Positions 1-39,448 of a DNA stretch of 39,655 bases are shown here, in pieces. Below the pieces are notes generated by a model. That model saw only the letters and a list, made by a program, of their open reading frames with translations, ran no database searches and was not told the origin of the DNA. Location: NCBI GenBank assembly GCA_017561145.1, contig JAFZDO010000004.1:1-39655 (forward strand), written 5' to 3'. A program made the position numbers and the translations under genes. Each line of letters opens with the position of its first letter. Position 1 is the stretch's first letter. This DNA comes from Clostridia bacterium. Its GTDB lineage: Bacteria > Bacillota > Clostridia > Oscillospirales > CAG-382.

Positions 1-140
1 CCCCAAAAAATCTAAAGATTTTTTAGGGACCCCATGCCCGCGCGGCGGGGTTTTGTGAGCATCGGACACTCGCGTCTCGCTCACCGCTCGCGATGCTCCA
101 AGGTATAAAAATCGAGGCACATGTCCCCGATTTTTATAGA
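1..140 (+). repeat. Structured 3'-end repeat element, copy alpha
   Basis: Read on the plus strand it starts with a terminator-like hairpin (1-28), continues through a GC-rich box ending in TTTTGTGAG, then a stem GAGCATCG (57-64) / CGATGCTC (91-98), the linker AAGGTATA, and a stem AAAAATCG (107-114) / CGATTTTT (128-135). Related copies lie at 28709-28869 and 32155-32314 on the minus strand. In this copy the terminal stem uses G-C where the others have C-G, with pairing kept. The interior of the large stem (65-90) is shorter and lacks the extra inner stem of the other two copies. The gene it presumably follows is left of the window. Function is unknown. Confidence 0.7.
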
Positions 141-10293: not shown

Positions 10294-10317
10294 AATGTAC
10301 CTTAAAGTCAATGCACG

Positions 10318-10408
10318 CTTTGTGCACTCTCCCTACGGCGGCATTATCCGCATCAGGTTCCTCGGGTATGTTCTCAGCCGTATGCTTATGCACACAGCAC
10401 CCCGTAAC
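10318..10408 (-). promoter_or_regulatory. TPP riboswitch (THI element)
   Basis: The minus strand shows the conserved aptamer blocks in order: ACGGGGTGC, GGCTGAGA, ACCCG, ACCTGAT, CGGATAATGCCG and GTAGGGA. This is close to the textbook consensus. It controls the thiT transcript. Confidence 0.95.
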
Positions 10409-10453
10409 TTGATTTAATTTTTAGATTTCAAGCAGAGCTCTTGCTTTGCAAAC

Positions 10454-24945: not shown

Positions 24946-25197
24946 GAGGGGACGCTTTTGAAAAAGCTTCCCCTCAAACTCCCTTTCAAAACTTTTCAAA
25001 ACAAAAAAACAAAAGGGCTTCGCTTGAAGTCCCTTTTTTGTGTTGAATTAATTGATTTTTCCAAAAACGGAGTTTTTGGGGATGAGAAGTTTTTGCCAAG
25101 CTTATGGGGTCCCCGAAAACGCTTGTCGATTTCGGGGTTATTGAAAAAAGCGGAAAAAGCGTAACAACAAAAAGGGGCTTCGGTTGAAGTCCCTTTT
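24946..25197. other. Intergenic run of hairpins between cotJC and the GH94 gene
   Basis: The 270-bp gap holds no gene. It contains a stem GAGGGGA / TCCCCTC (24946-24975); two related terminator hairpins of the form AAAAGGGxCTTC...GAAGxCCCTTTT (25011-25037 and about 25172-25197); and a tail copy of the structured repeat (25111-25137). The two terminators read in both directions and share sequence with the one at 28301-28330. Confidence 0.65.
25111..25137 (-). repeat. Tail-only copy of the structured 3'-end repeat
   Basis: Hairpin CCCCGAAA / TTTCGGGG with inner ACG-CTTGT-CGA. It shares the CTTGT loop and the adjoining GGGGTCCCC box with the 32155-32314 copy, but the inner T-A pair is C-G here, keeping the stem. 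It lies about 70 nt after the GH94 stop in the usual orientation. Confidence 0.65.
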
Positions 25198-28410: not shown

Positions 28411-28565
28411 AGCCTCCCTTGTGTAAAGGGAGGTGTCAGCGCGGTAAAATAGCGCTGACGGAGGGATTGTAGGTTACGGAGTAACCGTAGCCGTTATCAT
28501 AATTAAGTTAAAAACACAATCCCTCAGTCACCTTGCGGTGACAGCTCCCTTTACACAAAGGAGCC
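28411..28565. repeat. MITE-like nested palindromic repeat, copy 1
   Basis: About 155 bp. Ends are inverted copies (AGCCTCCCTTGTGTAAAGG at the left, its imperfect inverse CCTTTACACAAAGGAGCC at the right). Inner inverted arms are GGGATTGT / ACAATCCC. Three local hairpins are GTCAGCGC-N9-GCGCTGAC, GGTTAC-GGA-GTAACC and GTCACC-TTGC-GGTGAC. No reading frame. Copies 2 and 3 are at 39249-39399 and 39079-39218. Confidence 0.8.
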
Positions 28566-28619
28566 GTTTTTAAACGCTTCGTTTGTGCCCTAATGTTCCG
28601 TTTGCCGTATTTGTTACCG

Positions 28620-28680: not shown

Positions 28681-28708
28681 TTCAAAACACGAAGTGTTTT
28701 TATAAACA

Positions 28709-28869
28709 AAATTCTCTATAAAAATCCGCGACATGCGCGTGGATTTTTATACCTTAGAGTGCCGAGGATTCGGACAAGGCGCGAAGCGACGCGCACGAAT
28801 CCTATGCGAATGTACGGCACTCACAAAAAACGACCGAAATGCTTGCATTTCGTGTCGAGAGCGAAGCGA
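28709..28869 (-). repeat. Structured 3'-end repeat element, copy beta
   Basis: On the minus strand, directly after the topB stop: TCGCTTCGCTCTC, hairpin CGAAATG-CAAG-CATTTCG, TTTTTTGTGAG, then stem GAGTGCCG / CGGCACTC (28757-28764, 28815-28822) holding a second stem AGGATTCG / CGAATCCT (28765-28772, 28796-28803), then AAGGTATA and the terminal stem AAAAATCCGCG (28720-28730) paired to CGTGGATTTTT. The second stem shares no sequence with that of copy gamma, but both pair perfectly. No coding potential. Confidence 0.8.
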
Positions 28870-31020
28870 CTACTCATATTCAAACGCCATTTTGCCATTC
28901 TCGATTTTTAGCTTGGCGTTGAATTTGCTTCCGTCCTTTTTCTTAAAGCCCTTGATGAGCGCGGTCGAGCCGTCGGTCAAGAGCTTGCGGAGCTGAGCTT
29001 CGGTTATCTTTTTGCCGCAGATTACCGAGATCGCGAATTTACAGCCGTCCTTATGCCTTGCACAGACAAATCCCTCGTCCTCCGTATGTACCGTCGAGTT
29101 GCAAAGCGGACAGCGCACGCCCTCGAGCATATTCGCATAGCTTTGATTGGTGCGTGCCACGCGAGCGTTGATTATTTTAACCCAATCGCGCAATGCGTTT
29201 TCGAAATCGGCTTTGAAAATTTCGGCGTTTTCGGTGCCGCGTGCGATATCGCCCAAGCGGCGCTCCCAAACGGCGGTCAGCTCGGCGGATTTAAGCTGGT
29301 CGAGCGGCAGCTTTTCGATAAGGTCGATACCCTTTTGCGTTGCGCGGAGGGTTTTCTTTTCGCGCACGATATATTCGCGGTCGATAAGCGTTTGAATTAT
29401 CGCGGCGCGGGTTGCCTCGGTACCGATACCGCCTGTTTTCGGGTCGGACATAAGCTTTTTAAGCTCGGCATCGTCGAGATCCTTGCCGGCAGATAGCATT
29501 GCGGCGAGTATGGTTTTGTCGGTATAGCGCTTGGGCGGCTCGCTCATTTTGTCGCAAAGCTTGTAAACGCCCGTCAACTCCTCGCCGACCGTCAGATCGG
29601 GGAGAATTTCGGTCTTCGATGCATCGCCGACGACCATCCAGCCTGGGACGGCAATTATCGAGCCGTTTGCCTTAAATATTTCGCCGTTTACGTCGATTTC
29701 GACCTTGGTCTGCTCAAGGGTCGCATCGCCGTAAAGCATTTTTATCACCGAGCGGCAAATGAGGTCGAAAATGCGCTTTTGCTCCAACGGCAGACCCTTT
29801 GGGATGTTGCCTGTTGGGATGATGGCGAAGTGGGATTCGACCTTTTTGTTGTCGAAATAATGCTTTTTGTTGAATTTTCGTTCTCTGCCGACGATAAGGT
29901 CGGTGTAGATCGGCACACGCGAAAGCGAATCAAGCACGCGGTTGACGACAGGCTCCATATCCTCGGTGAGGTATTGCGAGTTGGTTCTCGGATAGGTCGT
30001 AAATCCGTCGTCGTAGAGCTTTTGGACGATATCGAGCGTTTGGTCGAGGGTGTAGCCGAATTTCGAGTTCGCGTCCATCTGCAACGCCGAAAGCGAATAG
30101 AGCAGAGGCGGCTCCTTTTTGACCTTTTTCTTTTTAACGTCCTTAACCGTTCCGACGTTTCCGTTTATCTTTTCGAAAAGTGCCTCGGCTTCGGATTTTT
30201 CGGTTATTTTTTCCTTCTGGTGCTTGGCCTTGAAGCTTTCGCCGCTTGCGTTGGTAAATTCCGCCTCTATCGCCCAATAGGGCGCTTTGACGAAGTTCAT
30301 TATCGCTAATTCACGGTTGACGAGCATCGCAAGTGTGGGGGTCTGAACTCTGCCGACGCTCATAACGCCTGCGCCGGGGTTCTTTAACGACATCGCGGCG
30401 GTAAGGTTTGCGCCGACTACCCAATCGGCGACAGAGCGCATTCTGCCTGCAGATTCTGTCAGCTTCATATCACTTCCGAGCTTGATGTTTTTGGTAAAGC
30501 CCTCGATAATGCCCTCCTTCGTTTGCGAGGTAAAGCAGGCGCGTTTTACGGGTTTGGTGCATTTTGCAAGCTCGTAGATATAGGCGAAAATGACCTCGCC
30601 CTCGCGGTCAAAGTCGGTCGCGTTTATGATAAGGTCGCTCTTTTCGAAAAGACCCTTGACGATATTGAACTGACGCTCGACCTTGGAGTCCCACGAGGAA
30701 TTAGAGCTTGTGCGGAGCTTTATTTCGTAATTATTCGGCACGAAGGGCATCGGCATTTTCGACCATAATTTATAGCTCGGGTCGTAATCGTATGCCTGCT
30801 TGAGCGTGCAAAGGTGGCCGTAGCCCCAGGTGACGTAGCATTCGTGTCCTTTATAGTTGATCTTTAGGTATCCGTCGCGATTTTGTTGGGATTTTACCGC
30901 TTTTTCGTTGGCTTTCAGCTTGGAAAATTCAACCGTTTCGCCGTTTGACAGATAGATCTTATCCAAAGCGGCGGCAATCTTGTTGCCGACGTCGGGCTTT
31001 TCCGCCAATATCGTTACCAT
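28870..31020 (-). CDS. topB: DNA topoisomerase III (type IA)
   Basis: 716 aa. Relaxes and decatenates DNA. TOPRIM domain at the N-terminus with Glu7 (AEKPDV) and DFDREGE (136-142); catalytic Tyr343 in GFTTYPRTNSQYL. Near the C-terminus, C-x2-C and a C/C pair (CPLCNST, VCARHKDGC) resemble a single zinc-ribbon-like topoisomerase repeat. Length is close to B. subtilis TopB (about 727). TopB-like enzymes occur both as housekeeping genes and on conjugative elements; no conjugation genes are seen here. The ribosome binding site AAAGGAGG is strong and there is a separate promoter. Confidence 0.94.
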   Translation of the reverse strand: MVTILAEKPDVGNKIAAALDKIYLSNGETVEFSKLKANEKAVKSQQNRDGYLKINYKGHECYVTWGYGHLCTLKQAYDYDPSYKLWSKMPMPFVPNNYEIKLRTSSNSSWDSKVERQFNIVKGLFEKSDLIINATDFDREGEVIFAYIYELAKCTKPVKRACFTSQTKEGIIEGFTKNIKLGSDMKLTESAGRMRSVADWVVGANLTAAMSLKNPGAGVMSVGRVQTPTLAMLVNRELAIMNFVKAPYWAIEAEFTNASGESFKAKHQKEKITEKSEAEALFEKINGNVGTVKDVKKKKVKKEPPLLYSLSALQMDANSKFGYTLDQTLDIVQKLYDDGFTTYPRTNSQYLTEDMEPVVNRVLDSLSRVPIYTDLIVGRERKFNKKHYFDNKKVESHFAIIPTGNIPKGLPLEQKRIFDLICRSVIKMLYGDATLEQTKVEIDVNGEIFKANGSIIAVPGWMVVGDASKTEILPDLTVGEELTGVYKLCDKMSEPPKRYTDKTILAAMLSAGKDLDDAELKKLMSDPKTGGIGTEATRAAIIQTLIDREYIVREKKTLRATQKGIDLIEKLPLDQLKSAELTAVWERRLGDIARGTENAEIFKADFENALRDWVKIINARVARTNQSYANMLEGVRCPLCNSTVHTEDEGFVCARHKDGCKFAISVICGKKITEAQLRKLLTDGSTALIKGFKKKDGSKFNAKLKIENGKMAFEYE

Positions 31021-31054
31021 TTTTTTGCCGCCTCCTTTTTAAGCGTTGTTTGTT

Positions 31055-31083
31055 ATTGTATCACAAAAAGTTGTCTTTTGCAA
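31055..31083 (-). promoter_or_regulatory. Sigma-A promoter of topB
   Basis: TTGCAA (31078-31083), a 17-nt spacer and TACAAT (31055-31060) on the minus strand, about 35 nt from the ATG. Confidence 0.75.
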
Positions 31084-31093
31084 TAATAAAGAA

Positions 31094-31213
31094 GACCGTA
31101 ACTAATTACGGACTTAAGTACGACAAAAATTTATAAAATTATAAATAATTATATTGAGAGTTTTTGGGGAGAGAGTTCGAGAGAGGGGCTTTTTGCAAAA
31201 AGCTCCTCTCTCG
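31094..31213 (-). terminator. Two hairpins after the Mrp gene
   Basis: Proximal: a long near-perfect stem at 31178-31213 with the GGGGCTTTTT-GC-AAAAAGCTCC core and no T-run after it on the minus strand. Distal: CCGTAA-N4-TTACGG (31096-31111) followed by TCTTCTTTATT, a plausible terminator. The gap 31114-31177 is AT-rich with nothing else seen. Confidence 0.65.
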
Positions 31214-31238
31214 TAATATCTCTTAAAACAACAATCAA

Positions 31239-32057
31239 TTATAAATCCTGTTCGGAAAGAAGTGCGCCTTCGTAGCTTTCGAGGTCGCCCGCGTCGCAAA
31301 GAGCGGCAAGCTTGGGGTCGATGGGGAGCTTGGAAATGCGTTCGATTCCGTGAGCCTTTGCAACTTCGTCAACCTTGCTTTCGCCGTAGATATAGTGCTT
31401 TTGGTTACAATCGGGGCATTCGAAATAGGAATAGTTTTCTACAAGGCCCAAGATAGGCTTGTTCATAAGCTCTGCCAAGCGAACCGCCTTGCCGACGATC
31501 ATAGAAACGAGGTCCTGAGGGCTTGTTACGATAATCATACCGTCAACGGGAAGCGACTGGAAAACGGTAAGCGGAACGTCGCCCGTTCCGGGAGGCATAT
31601 CGATAAACATAACGTCGTTTTCGCCCCAATTAACGTCGGTCCAGAACTGCTTTACACAGCCTGCGATAACGGGACCGCGCCAAGCAACGGGGTCGGTTTC
31701 GTTGGGGAGAAGAAGGTTAAGCGACATAATCTTGATGCCGGTCTTGCTTTCGGGGGGGATCATCGATTCGCCGTCGCTCATAACGCCGCTGCCAACGCCG
31801 AAGATCTTGGGGATAGAGGGTCCGGTGATATCGGCATCGAGGATGCAGACCTTTTTGCCCTCTCTTAGCGCGTTTATCGCAAGAAGCGAGGTGACGAGCG
31901 ACTTACCTACACCGCCCTTACCGCTTACAACGGCGATAACCTTGCCTATCTTGCTTCCCTCGCGAAGCTTTTCGATCATACTTTCGGGCGCCGAGCCCTT
32001 ATCTCTGCTCGAGCAGTTTGCACTGCAGGTCGAGCAATCGTGCGTACATTCACTCAT
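31239..32057 (-). CDS. Mrp/Nbp35-family iron-sulfur carrier ATPase
   Basis: 272 aa. P-loop SGKGGVGKSLVTSLLA; switch DADITGPSIPK; DMPPGTGDVPLT. The C-terminal CPDC motif is the bridging Fe-S site of the family. The N-terminus carries four cysteines (Cys4, 8, 11, 15; C-x3-C-x2-C-x3-C) like eukaryotic Nbp35, a form frequent in anaerobes. Likely role: assembling and delivering Fe-S clusters in the cytosol. It stands alone between topB and a structured repeat. Confidence 0.92.
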   Translation of the reverse strand: MSECTHDCSTCSANCSSRDKGSAPESMIEKLREGSKIGKVIAVVSGKGGVGKSLVTSLLAINALREGKKVCILDADITGPSIPKIFGVGSGVMSDGESMIPPESKTGIKIMSLNLLLPNETDPVAWRGPVIAGCVKQFWTDVNWGENDVMFIDMPPGTGDVPLTVFQSLPVDGMIIVTSPQDLVSMIVGKAVRLAELMNKPILGLVENYSYFECPDCNQKHYIYGESKVDEVAKAHGIERISKLPIDPKLAALCDAGDLESYEGALLSEQDL

Positions 32058-32154
32058 TTTTTCTTTCCTTCTTATCTGTTATCTTTTTAAAAAGTCTTTC
32101 TCTCGCGTTCTTTTTATTAATCATAATCAAACGCACATATATACAATAAAAATA

Positions 32155-32314
32155 ATCATAAAAATCCGCGACATGTGCGTGGATTTTTATACCTTAGAGC
32201 ATCGCAACCTTGGACAAGCCGAAGGCGCGCACAAGGTTGATGCGAATGTACGATGCTCACAAAACCCCGCCGCGCGGGTTTTGGGTCCCCGAAAATGCTT
32301 GTCATTTTTGGGGA
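32155..32314 (-). repeat. Structured 3'-end repeat element, copy gamma
   Basis: On the minus strand: hairpin TCCCC-AAAAATG-ACAAG-CATTTTC-GGGGA (32286-32314), GC-rich box, TTTTGTGAG, stem GAGCATCG / CGATGCTC (32197-32204, 32251-32258), inner stem CAACCTTG / CAAGGTTG (32205-32212, 32232-32239), AAGGTATA, terminal stem AAAAATCCGCG (32160-32170) / CGTGGATTTTT (32178-32188). The loop ACATGYG and the segment ATGCGAATGTA (plus strand) are shared with copy beta. The tail hairpin contains the last codons and the stop of the upstream gene. Confidence 0.8.
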
Positions 32315-33072
32315 GAGCGGAGCTCCCTAAGATATTTTATGCTCATTTCGGCACATTCAAACGGAGTTTTTCCGACAGTCGGCTGATCCTGCTCGACAAC
32401 ATACCATTCAACACCGCATTTTTCGGCGGTTTCGATTATTGAAACGAAATTGATTTCCCCATGGCCTACGGGACGGAACCCAAATTCACCGTTTTCGCGG
32501 CTATAATCCTTTAAATGAAGCAACGGGCAACGGTTTTTATACTTTTCAAGATATTTTTCGGGACTATGTCCGGAAAAGTGTACCCAACAAACGTCTTGCT
32601 GCATTTTCAGCAAATCGGGCGAGATGGTTTCGAAAATATTATCGAACCCAAGAACACCGTTTTGAAGCGGCTCGAATTCAAAGCCGTGGTTGTGATAGGA
32701 AAGCGACATTTGTTTTTCGGCAGCGATTTTTCCGATACGCTCGAAATCCGCTTTGGTATTTTCCCAACTTTCGCTTTTCGGACGGTCGATTTCATCGAGC
32801 CACGGGATAACGATATGCTTACATCCGACACGCTTAAAGCATTCGATAGCGCCCGACGCATCTTTGCGAAGATCACCGATAGGAATATGCGCCGAAATCG
32901 GAACAAGACCAAGCTCGCCTACCAATTCCGCCATTTCTTCGGGAGTTTTACCCCAAAGTCCCGCAAATTCAACACCGTCATAGCCAAGCTCCTTAACTTT
33001 TTTGAGGGTTGCCTTTACGTCTTTTTGCATTTCGTCACGAAGCGAGAAAAGCTGTATTGCAACAGGTTTCAT
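32302..33072 (-). CDS. Sugar phosphate isomerase/epimerase-like TIM barrel
   Basis: 256 aa of the AP_endonuc_2/xylose-isomerase-like barrel family. KPVAIQLFSLRDEM, then LGYDGVEFAG, SAHIP, LSYHNHGFEF and YVVEQDQP supply the His/Glu/Asp metal site. Members include inosose and hydroxypyruvate isomerases; the substrate is not clear. The C-terminus ends RSPQK and the TGA stop plus the last three codons lie inside the hairpin of the repeat gamma, so the native end was probably remodelled by insertion. It follows the M29 peptidase gene by 16 bp. Confidence 0.87.
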   Translation of the reverse strand: MKPVAIQLFSLRDEMQKDVKATLKKVKELGYDGVEFAGLWGKTPEEMAELVGELGLVPISAHIPIGDLRKDASGAIECFKRVGCKHIVIPWLDEIDRPKSESWENTKADFERIGKIAAEKQMSLSYHNHGFEFEPLQNGVLGFDNIFETISPDLLKMQQDVCWVHFSGHSPEKYLEKYKNRCPLLHLKDYSRENGEFGFRPVGHGEINFVSIIETAEKCGVEWYVVEQDQPTVGKTPFECAEMSIKYLRELRSPQK

Positions 33073-35829: not shown

Positions 35830-35896
35830 CCTAAACAATTGCCTAAACAATTATCCAAACAATTATCCAAACAATTATCCAAACAATTACCTAAAA
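35830..35896. repeat. 12-bp tandem repeat array
   Basis: Five full units YCYAAACAATTR (three identical TCCAAACAATTA) plus a partial sixth. It lies between rny and ymdB. Confidence 0.9.
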
Positions 35897-36008
35897 CCGT
35901 TCAGAGCGGATGCAGATTGTGCAAACAGAACCCGAAGCTGTAGAAACCTACTGCGAGCGGTTCTGTTTGTGCAAAGCGAAAGCGGTCTGCGCCGTTATGG
36001 ACGGTTTT
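35893..36008 (-). other. 116-nt nested hairpin immediately 3' of rny
   Basis: Outer arms AAAACCGT / ACGGTTTT, inner arms CAAACAGAACC / GGTTCTGTTTG, and short GCAGA / TCTGC pairing between. It begins 2 nt after the rny stop. It may terminate or stabilise the rny mRNA and separates it from ymdB. There are AT-rich tandem repeats after it rather than a classical T-run. Confidence 0.6.
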
Positions 36009-38960: not shown

Positions 38961-39003
38961 CTTCGCTCTCCCCAAAAAATCTAAAGATTTTTTAGGGACC
39001 CCA
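38961..39003 (+). repeat. Tail-only copy of the structured 3'-end repeat
   Basis: Directly after the stop: CTTCGCTCTCCCC, then AAAAAATC-TAAA-GATTTTTT and GGGACCCC. Its hairpin is the same as at 1-28. It probably acts as terminator of the YkuE-like gene. Confidence 0.75.
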
Positions 39004-39078
39004 TTCTAACCTCAAATCAAGGGAAAGCCTTTTTGGCGCTCCGTTTTGTGTCCTAATGTTGCGCTTGTGTTAACAAAT

Positions 39079-39248: not shown

Positions 39249-39399
39249 AGCCTCCCTTGTGTAAAGGGAGGTGGATTTTGCGGAGCAAAAGACGGAGGGA
39301 TTGTAGGTTACGGAGTAACCGTAGGTTTTTACAATATAATGTTAAAAGGACAATCCCTCAGTCACCTTGCGGTGACAGCTCCCTTTACACAAAGGAGCC
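39249..39399. repeat. MITE-like repeat, copy 2
   Basis: Nearly the same as copy 1 over its right half (GTCACC-TTGC-GGTGAC, then the CCTTTACACAAAGGAGCC end), with a different left inner hairpin. The flanking AATGTTCCGTTTTCCGTATTTG also recurs beside copy 1 (28591-28613). The ORF starting at 39257 is inside the repeat and is not a gene. Confidence 0.8.
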
Positions 39400-39448
39400 A
39401 TTTTATCGTTCCAAATGTTCCGTTTTCCGTATTTGTTTCGCGTATGCT

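Follow-up and report, generated by a model that had tools for sequence, protein, structure and literature searches.

A folded repeat of gut Clostridia whose stems seem to be rewritten from copy to copy around constant loops

Can a dispersed repeat hold one folded shape while the sequence of its stems is rewritten from copy to copy? The question is raised by a 39,655-nucleotide stretch of a Clostridia bacterium genome (contig JAFZDO010000004.1), here called the window, whose numbering is used throughout. An earlier note on this stretch had described three structured elements in it, alike in the order of their parts, their linkers and their loops, and different in stem sequence with pairing preserved. 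The three copies exist and match one another, as seen from the sequence and from a covariance model (R1), which was built from sequences including copies 2 and 3, but not copy 1, and which recovers all three. The element seems to be an undescribed kind of folded repeat of one fixed shape, in which the stems are rewritten from copy to copy and the loops stay constant. The explanation towards which we lean is that of a non-autonomous, modular, interspersed element of the window's Clostridia order, whose conserved form is the folded sense strand, most likely as RNA.

The conserved folded form is ~80–110 nt in length and extends from a first hairpin (hairpin B) to a terminal hairpin. Hairpin B has 12 bp and the loop GACAUGYGC; it is followed by the linker ACCUUR and then by an 8-bp main helix that closes a three-way junction. 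In 46 core sequences, the junction arm has 8 bp, with GACAA/GCGCA as its internal loop and an apical stem that varies. The second branch of the junction is a 2-bp hairpin with a GCGA tetraloop, and the joining bases are GNA. A second class of arm was recognized by eye, in which CGAGUGUCGA pairs with GAGGCGCGAG via tandem G·A and U·G pairs.

Pairing and covariation were quantified in these 46 sequences, which were drawn from 90 parsed copies as distinct sequences of the GACA arm class with an insert of at most 64 nt. A main helix paired at 8 of 8 positions (G·T allowed) and a hairpin B with Watson-Crick pairs at 10 or more of 13 positions were also required. The counts for the main helix and hairpin B are biased because the set was filtered on their pairing; no such selection was applied to the inner arm and the mini-hairpin. 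Overall, 98.5% of pair cells are paired, a level that none of 500 shuffles reaches and that falls to at most 46.3% with slid partners. The covariation score is 0.644, as compared with 0.201 for shuffled alignments (0 of 500 reach it) and at most 0.151 for slid partners. In the inner arm, all eight pairs have changes on both sides, with 99.5% of cells paired, and the same holds for both pairs of the mini-hairpin, with 100% of cells paired. Four of five measures exceed every shuffle; the exception is the number of further pair types (46, versus 46.6 in shuffles, with 358 of 500 reaching it). In an unfiltered set of 114 R1 matches (104 distinct), standard pairs make up 96.2% of pair cells, and the covariation score is 0.591 (0.185 shuffled; at most 0.149 slid), with all five measures beyond all shuffles; these counts lean towards structure because the alignment was fitted to the model. 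Selection on the folded sense strand is indicated by conserved loops and linkers, the covarying GNRA hairpin, G·U and G·A pairs kept on one strand, and the frequent insertion of extra hairpins at loops. By eye, at least 14 copies outside isolate SIG634 have such a hairpin at or beside the B, apical, or GCGA loop. The earlier suggestion of selection on RNA or single-stranded DNA structure is supported, in that the clade-wide alignment covaries strongly; the covariance-model search of the genome and of related Clostridia that went with the suggestion yielded a large family with covariation above shuffles.

Within the window, the stem differences are largely as first described. The G-C to C-G swaps occur at two loop-proximal pairs around the ACATGYG loop, and the main stem is GAGCATCG/CGATGCTC in copies 1 and 3 as compared with GAGTGCCG/CGGCACTC in copy 2. 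The contrast reported for the inner stem, AGGATTCG/CGAATCCT in copy 2 versus CAACCTTG/CAAGGTTG in copy 3, also holds. It is informative for these two copies only, because the inner arm of copy 1 belongs to a different, shorter class (CGAGCGGTGAGCGAG). The three sites had been placed correctly, but copy 1 is a minus-strand copy, truncated at its far end by the start of the contig. The span 28709–32314, given as a single feature, comprises two copies that are separated by two genes.

The element is abundant and unevenly distributed. R1 had at least 292 matches in the taxonomic family (E ≤ 0.001), of whose 63 genomes at least 18 are positive; the counts are lower bounds obtained with stricter filters and at most 62 candidates scored per genome, and the E-values are rough. 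Carrier genomes have 1–40 copies, with at least 27 in the window's own genome (G000; 1.55 Mb, 45 contigs, 68% complete). By genus, 13 genomes of the window's own genus together have at least 236 matches, four genomes of a second genus at least 54, and one genome of a third at least two. A control search of the same 63 genomes for the thiamine pyrophosphate (TPP) riboswitch was positive in 58, of which 55 had a single copy. The window itself has a TPP riboswitch (10313–10414, minus strand, 62.2 bits). Across the order, with at most 13 candidates scored per genome, R1 matched at least 24 of 295 genomes at E ≤ 1e-5, four of them in the same family and 20 elsewhere with weaker matches. The GACATGYGC loop is present in seven of eight extra-family loci that were fetched; the eighth, L259, lacks it and may be a false match. 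Loci L260 and L261 are three-copy tandem arrays with equal scores and spacing in genomes of two families (G197 and G162), a likeness due either to recent transfer or to assembly contamination.

The element was also sought by sequence. A blastn search with copy 3 against the window's assembly returned 69 matches; ~20 of them extend over a large part of the element, and ~30 are confined to the terminal hairpin module. The pattern of the B loop and linker was found in 40 stretches in named genomes, all of them metagenome-assembled genomes labeled Oscillospiraceae or Clostridia bacterium, and many of ruminant origin according to their record titles; duplicate loci were removed by sequence. The exact pattern had no match among the viral contigs searched, and a viral origin was set aside. 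One window gene compared by megablast with E. coli genomes had no match, as expected.

Comparison of orthologous sites reveals turnover, both of whole elements and of their stems. Thirteen copies in G000 were compared with the relative G005, a second species: window copies 2 and 3, and eleven others whose right flank was long enough. The element occurs in both genomes at six of the 13 sites, and the full element is missing from G005 at the other seven, one of which retains a minimal terminal hairpin. At the six shared sites, the right flanks are 86–96% identical and the left flanks, matched in five of the six, 93–99% identical. Within the elements, identical positions number 51 of 54 in loops, 28 of 36 in linkers, 105 of 144 in B stems, and 54 of 96 in main helices. 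All 12 main helices are nevertheless fully Watson-Crick, with the 3' strand located by complementarity. By our own reading, retained sequence gives way to substituted sequence at a conserved linker in four of the six sites (ACCTT in two and ACAAAA in two). At one gene end, the element is present in all five species compared, with different stems.

The stems appear to change by more than point mutation. Among 87 parsed copies, there are 17 B stems and 21 main helices in 52 combinations, and of eight junction sequences shared between copies, five are combined with two or more different B stems. The copies are therefore mosaics. Identical 46-nt interiors are enclosed by main helices in which three pairs are changed in both strands, a result that a single conversion tract ending in the linkers would not yield. 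Stems change as blocks with few G·U intermediates, which suggests that exchange or template switching contributes to stem change. Recombination or template switching could account for some of the covariation, and since block replacement could yield it, covariation alone is weaker proof of selection than usual. Selection is nonetheless the simplest reason for constant loops and linkers and for the scarcity of mispaired recombinants.

The strongest of the alternatives takes this further and holds that the covariation is mainly mutational: template switching in inverted repeats would copy one arm onto the other, such that even a junk repeat would keep its stems paired as they change. We consider this unlikely as the main account, even though block changes with few intermediates fit it well, as do terminal hairpin arms that match each other or the flank (by eye). 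Taken alone, it leaves unexplained the constancy of loops (51 of 54 positions identical) and of linkers beside changing stems. It also does not account for the fixed U·G and G·A pairs, the covarying GCGA mini-hairpin, or the precise position of the TAYAAT hexamer described below. Recombinants with mismatched arms exist as well, mainly in one isolate. Monttinen and Loytynoja have described template switching that maintains stems in RNA genes (PMC8794818). Their cases and the present element have in common compensatory changes that involve several bases and leave few intermediates; those cases are microRNA and rRNA genes, whereas the present element has many copies, dispersed and with discrete stem types that recombine.

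Returning to the reading of a folded sense strand, we asked which strand and which nucleic acid the fold favors. Among the exceptions to Watson-Crick pairing in the main helix, G·T is seen 18 times and A·C five times. Pair 11 of hairpin B is G·U in 68 of 104 sequences and A-U in 29. Of 46 sequences, 37 have the more stable fold on the sense strand. Because the copies are related, such counts lack independence, and G·T is accepted more readily than A·C by the parse as well as by the model. On balance, we favor the strand running from hairpin B to the terminal hairpin as the conserved one. G·U makes up 3.0% of predicted pairs, as compared with 14.2% in 27 TPP riboswitches from the same family genomes (30 fetched, with three longer ones omitted). 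The G·U share in minimum-energy folds was used for this comparison, a cruder control, because the MAFFT alignment of the variable stems of TPP riboswitches was misaligned. The conserved form is most likely RNA; the present data fit RNA and single-stranded DNA alike.

A second alternative, which we regard as distinctly unlikely, is that the element acts at the level of DNA, as single-stranded DNA or a cruciform handled by a transposase or recombinase that recognizes hairpins, in the manner of REP/RAYT, the ends of IS200/IS605 elements, or integron attC sites. Near-pure Watson-Crick stems, hairpins inserted at hairpin loops (by eye), and the location at gene ends are in keeping with such an element, as are tails of the form GCGNAGC, a motif that is stable as a DNA mini-hairpin. 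Retention of U·G and tandem G·A pairs on one strand speaks against it. The neighbors of the element also look, by eye, like ordinary chromosomal genes, and the transposase domain Y1_Tnp was not found in G000, the sole genome searched for it and 68% complete.

The two ends of the element bear on how a folded sense strand might be made and where it lies. Of 99 distinct upstream sequences, 59 have a TAYAAT hexamer that ends 6–11 nt ahead of hairpin B, 49 of them at 8–9 nt; in 300 dinucleotide shuffles, the mean is 1.2 and the maximum 5. Hairpins resembling AAAACACGAAGTGTTTT stand before many G000 copies, as judged by eye. At the right end, at least four A occur within 10 nt after the main helix in 67 of 100 sequences, with the terminal hairpin next. 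This hairpin usually adjoins the 3' end of an opposite-strand gene, and the terminal region is terminator-like on that other strand at copies 2 and 3. The right-hand gene lies on the other strand and ends towards the element at 45 of 62 sites with enough flank, a count based on simple open reading frame (ORF) calls that includes tandem copies and a few B-only sites. At copy 2, the terminal region read on the minus strand is an apparent intrinsic terminator (terminator-like site 28852–28835) right after the stop codon of the minus-strand gene 28870–31020, which looks topoisomerase-like from its sequence. At copy 3, the element region encodes the last codons and the stop of the minus-strand gene 33072–32302; the orthologous site in G005 is without the element, and the C-terminus of the gene is different there. 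Copy 3 has one terminator-like site on the minus strand (32278–32266) and two more on the plus (sense) strand. A main role for hairpin B as a plain bidirectional terminator was rejected, since its pairs 4–7 are flipped from A-U to U-A in 38–40 of 104 sequences and the sense-strand U-tract is thereby lost.

The terminal hairpin module also occurs apart from the core. The module GGGGTCCCC..GGGG stands without a core at 25107–25137 and at 38970–39004, the latter an identical 35-mer to the module of copy 1. In locus L025 (~1501–1531), the module lies upstream of an apparent tmRNA gene, beside a shortened B-like hairpin (by eye).

A non-mobile chromosomal family of small RNAs or 3'-end regulators (inherited terminators, insulators, or protein-binding RNAs) would account for the terminator-like terminal region, the occupied gene end in five of five species, and the gene-end orientation bias, but is improbable in view of the patchy occurrence (at least 18 of 63 genomes, with 1–40 copies), the seven of 13 sites without the full element in a close relative, the tandem arrays, and the quick replacement of stems at fixed sites.

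In keeping with an interspersed element, it probably spreads: an orthologous site may have or lack it, its copies are numerous and in places nested, and it forms tandem arrays (of five copies in G011, and of three each in G197 and G162). Comparison with an empty site revealed a 10-bp duplication (AAGCTTTAAA) at one locus, where the insertion also carried other repeat sequence; longer flanking repeats (20 to ~57 bp) occur elsewhere and may be tandem duplications. Miniature inverted-repeat transposable elements (MITEs) are marked by terminal inverted repeats and by target-site duplications of one fixed length. Inspection of the left end (TACAATAAAAATC) against the right end (the terminal hairpin, AGAGCGNAGCG), whose exact limits are not fixed, revealed no terminal inverted repeats.

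The sequences show the fold, multi-copy dispersal, constant loops beside freely changing stems, presence and absence at sites, mosaic copies, and wholesale replacement of stems in place. The fold, the constant loops, and the positioned hexamer fit a folded sense strand that is read by something. In the mechanism we propose, the TAYAAT box at the left end would drive transcription starting at hairpin B, and a trans-acting factor would recognize the conserved loops and spread the element. New copies would settle at gene 3' ends, where the terminal hairpin and the A-rich linker would serve the opposite-strand neighbor as an intrinsic terminator and so make insertion harmless. Ectopic conversion at the linkers, which are conserved, might then swap modules between resident copies, template switching inside hairpins might re-copy one arm from the other, and selection on the fold would clear most of the mispaired products. 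A bolder version, which we offer tentatively and which is rather doubtful, is that of a SINE-like bacterial element inherited as a fold and not as a sequence. It would be an RNA with its own -10 box, be order-wide, and have helices rewritten on the spot as perfectly paired blocks, much faster than its flanks, through module exchange at the conserved linkers and copying from arm to arm, with a factor that reads only the loops and junction.

A number of observations weigh against the reading we favor. With respect to the stems, one-sided changes of the main helix are seen in 16 of 65 copy pairs with near-identical interiors; that is, intermediates exist. Isolate SIG634 has an extra hairpin in the arm of nine copies, and the arms are mismatched in eight of these, so recombination can break pairing. 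With respect to the strand, the G·T and A·C tally comes from an alignment and parse that favor G·T, and the inner arm of the filtered set has one of each. Antisense folds are richer in G·U than sense folds (5.5% versus 3.0%), the reverse of TPP riboswitches (7.7% versus 14.2%), and near-pure Watson-Crick stems would equally fit DNA hairpins or templated copying. A consensus scan gave no -35/-10 promoter at copies 2 and 3 (copy 1 was left out), and a full promoter was set aside, the family-wide support being for a -10-like hexamer only. TAYAAT at 8–9 nt is missing from all three copies in the window, one of which has TACAAT at 10. The gene contexts were assigned by ORF length only. The flanking direct repeats range from 10 to ~57 bp, some of them within tandem arrays.

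The enzymes searched for likewise include no consistent mobilizer, and the absence of Y1_Tnp from G000 counts here as well. Among 16 genomes of the genus, most of them incomplete, the reverse transcriptase domain RVT_1 is present in three of nine carriers (G005, G008, and G012) and none of seven non-carriers; the carriers without it are G000, G001, G004, G006, G011 (97% complete), and G015. This pattern neither supports nor excludes a reverse transcriptase. The TnpB domain PF07282 occurs in one of 24 genomes of the genus, one that has no R1 matches. IS200/IS605, TnpB, and reverse-transcriptase mobilizers were set aside for want of a consistent association in the genomes searched.

The earlier note did not recognize the element as a known family, and comparison with Rfam agrees. 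A search of the whole window against Rfam 15 returned the TPP riboswitch alone. The copy 2 region, at E ≤ 10, gave seven sub-threshold matches, the best being to Trp_leader at 22.9 bits (against a cut-off of 41) and to csRNA at 28 bits (against 57). Fourteen loci (divergent copies or flanks) gave one sub-threshold tmRNA match, located outside the element. A known RNA family was rejected on these grounds. HEARO, the omega RNA of IscB-TnpB elements, is a multi-copy structured RNA linked to a mobile element; the present element has no Rfam match, and TnpB was found only in a non-carrier (IscB was not searched). The REP/BIME-RAYT palindromes are dispersed hairpins between genes, in comparison with which the present element is longer and has a three-way junction, with no Y1 transposase in G000. 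Integron attC sites are defined by conserved RYYYAAC/GTTRRRY boxes and go with an integron integrase and gene cassettes.

Closer relatives in kind are the intergenic repeats BOX, RUP, and SPRITE of Streptococcus pneumoniae, which are typically <200 bp, have many copies, and are predicted to form RNA stem-loops; BOX is modular (boxA/B/C), and SPRITE is terminator-like (PMC3049150). The present element is likewise short, many-copy, intergenic, modular, stem-loop forming, and terminator-like. In contrast to these repeats, it has no terminal inverted repeats that we could see, and its stems differ wholesale, a comparison made by description and not by sequence; neither 'covar' nor 'compensat' occurs in the text of PMC3049150. 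No title or opening of an abstract among the literature retrieved describes the element, although the large candidate sets in PMC8040213 and PMC8632094 could include it without a name. We rate the element as grouping with structured interspersed repeats such as BOX rather than as forming a new category.

Table 1. Location of the three copies and their parts in the window.
Feature	Position	Strand	Basis
Copy 1 core	57..137	-	R1, 65.2 bits, E 7.6e-13
Copy 1 hairpin B; linker ACCTTG; main helix	137-105; 104-99; 98-91 with 64-57	-	sequence
Copy 1 short GA-rich arm and mini-hairpin, enclosed by main helix	90-65	-	
Copy 1 linker, GC hairpin CCCCGCCGCGCGGG, terminal hairpin module GGGGTCCCT..GGGG	1..56	-	
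Hairpin AAAACACGAAGTGTTTT and -10-like TATAAA, upstream of copy 2	28684..28706	+	sequence
Copy 2 core	28718..28822	+	R1, 106.7 bits, E 4.7e-22
Copy 2 hairpin B (loop GACATGCGC); linker; main helix	28718-28750; 28751-28756; 28757-28764 with 28815-28822	+	
Copy 2 inner arm AGGATTCG/CGAATCCT and mini-hairpin ATGCGAAT	within 28765-28814	+	
Copy 2 linker ACAAAAAA, terminal hairpin CGACCGAAATGCTTGCATTTCGTGTCG, tail AGAGCGAAGCGAC	28823..28870	-	
TACAAT, -10-like hexamer, 10 nt upstream of copy 3	32142..32147	+	sequence and family-wide position profile
Copy 3 core	32158..32258	+	R1, 113.5 bits, E 1.5e-23
Copy 3 hairpin B (loop GACATGTGC); linker; main helix	32158-32190; 32191-32196; 32197-32204 with 32251-32258	+	
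Copy 3 inner arm; GCGA mini-hairpin	32205-32212 with 32232-32239; 32240-32247	+	
Copy 3 linker ACAAAA, GC hairpin CCCGCCGCGCGGG, terminal hairpin GGGTCCCCGAAAATGC..TTTTTGGGG with tail	32259..32330	-	

Other repeats were noted as well. A second dispersed repeat, with the core GAAGCTGTAGNAANCTACTGC and seemingly with stems of its own, is found at 35934–35954 (plus strand) and, by eye, in loci L179, L043, L047, and L080. In L179 it is flanked by a ~20-bp direct repeat (TATGCRATTAATGACAGCCG), and its loci L179, L043, and L047 have no Rfam match. A pair of 114-nt repeats (28457–28570 and 39291–39404) is 89% identical, with palindromes of the CTCCCTTTACACAAAGGAG type close by, and a tandem repeat with the 12-bp unit AAACAATTATCC occupies 35833–35892.

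If the reading of a modular element conserved as a folded sense strand is correct, it would add an undescribed, order-wide family of structured interspersed elements to gut Clostridia. Its related copies, orthologous sites, and tandem arrays would constitute a natural experiment on the evolution of RNA stems, in which selection and template switching as sources of compensatory changes become directly testable. It would also serve as a warning that covariation within repeat families need not mean point-by-point selection.

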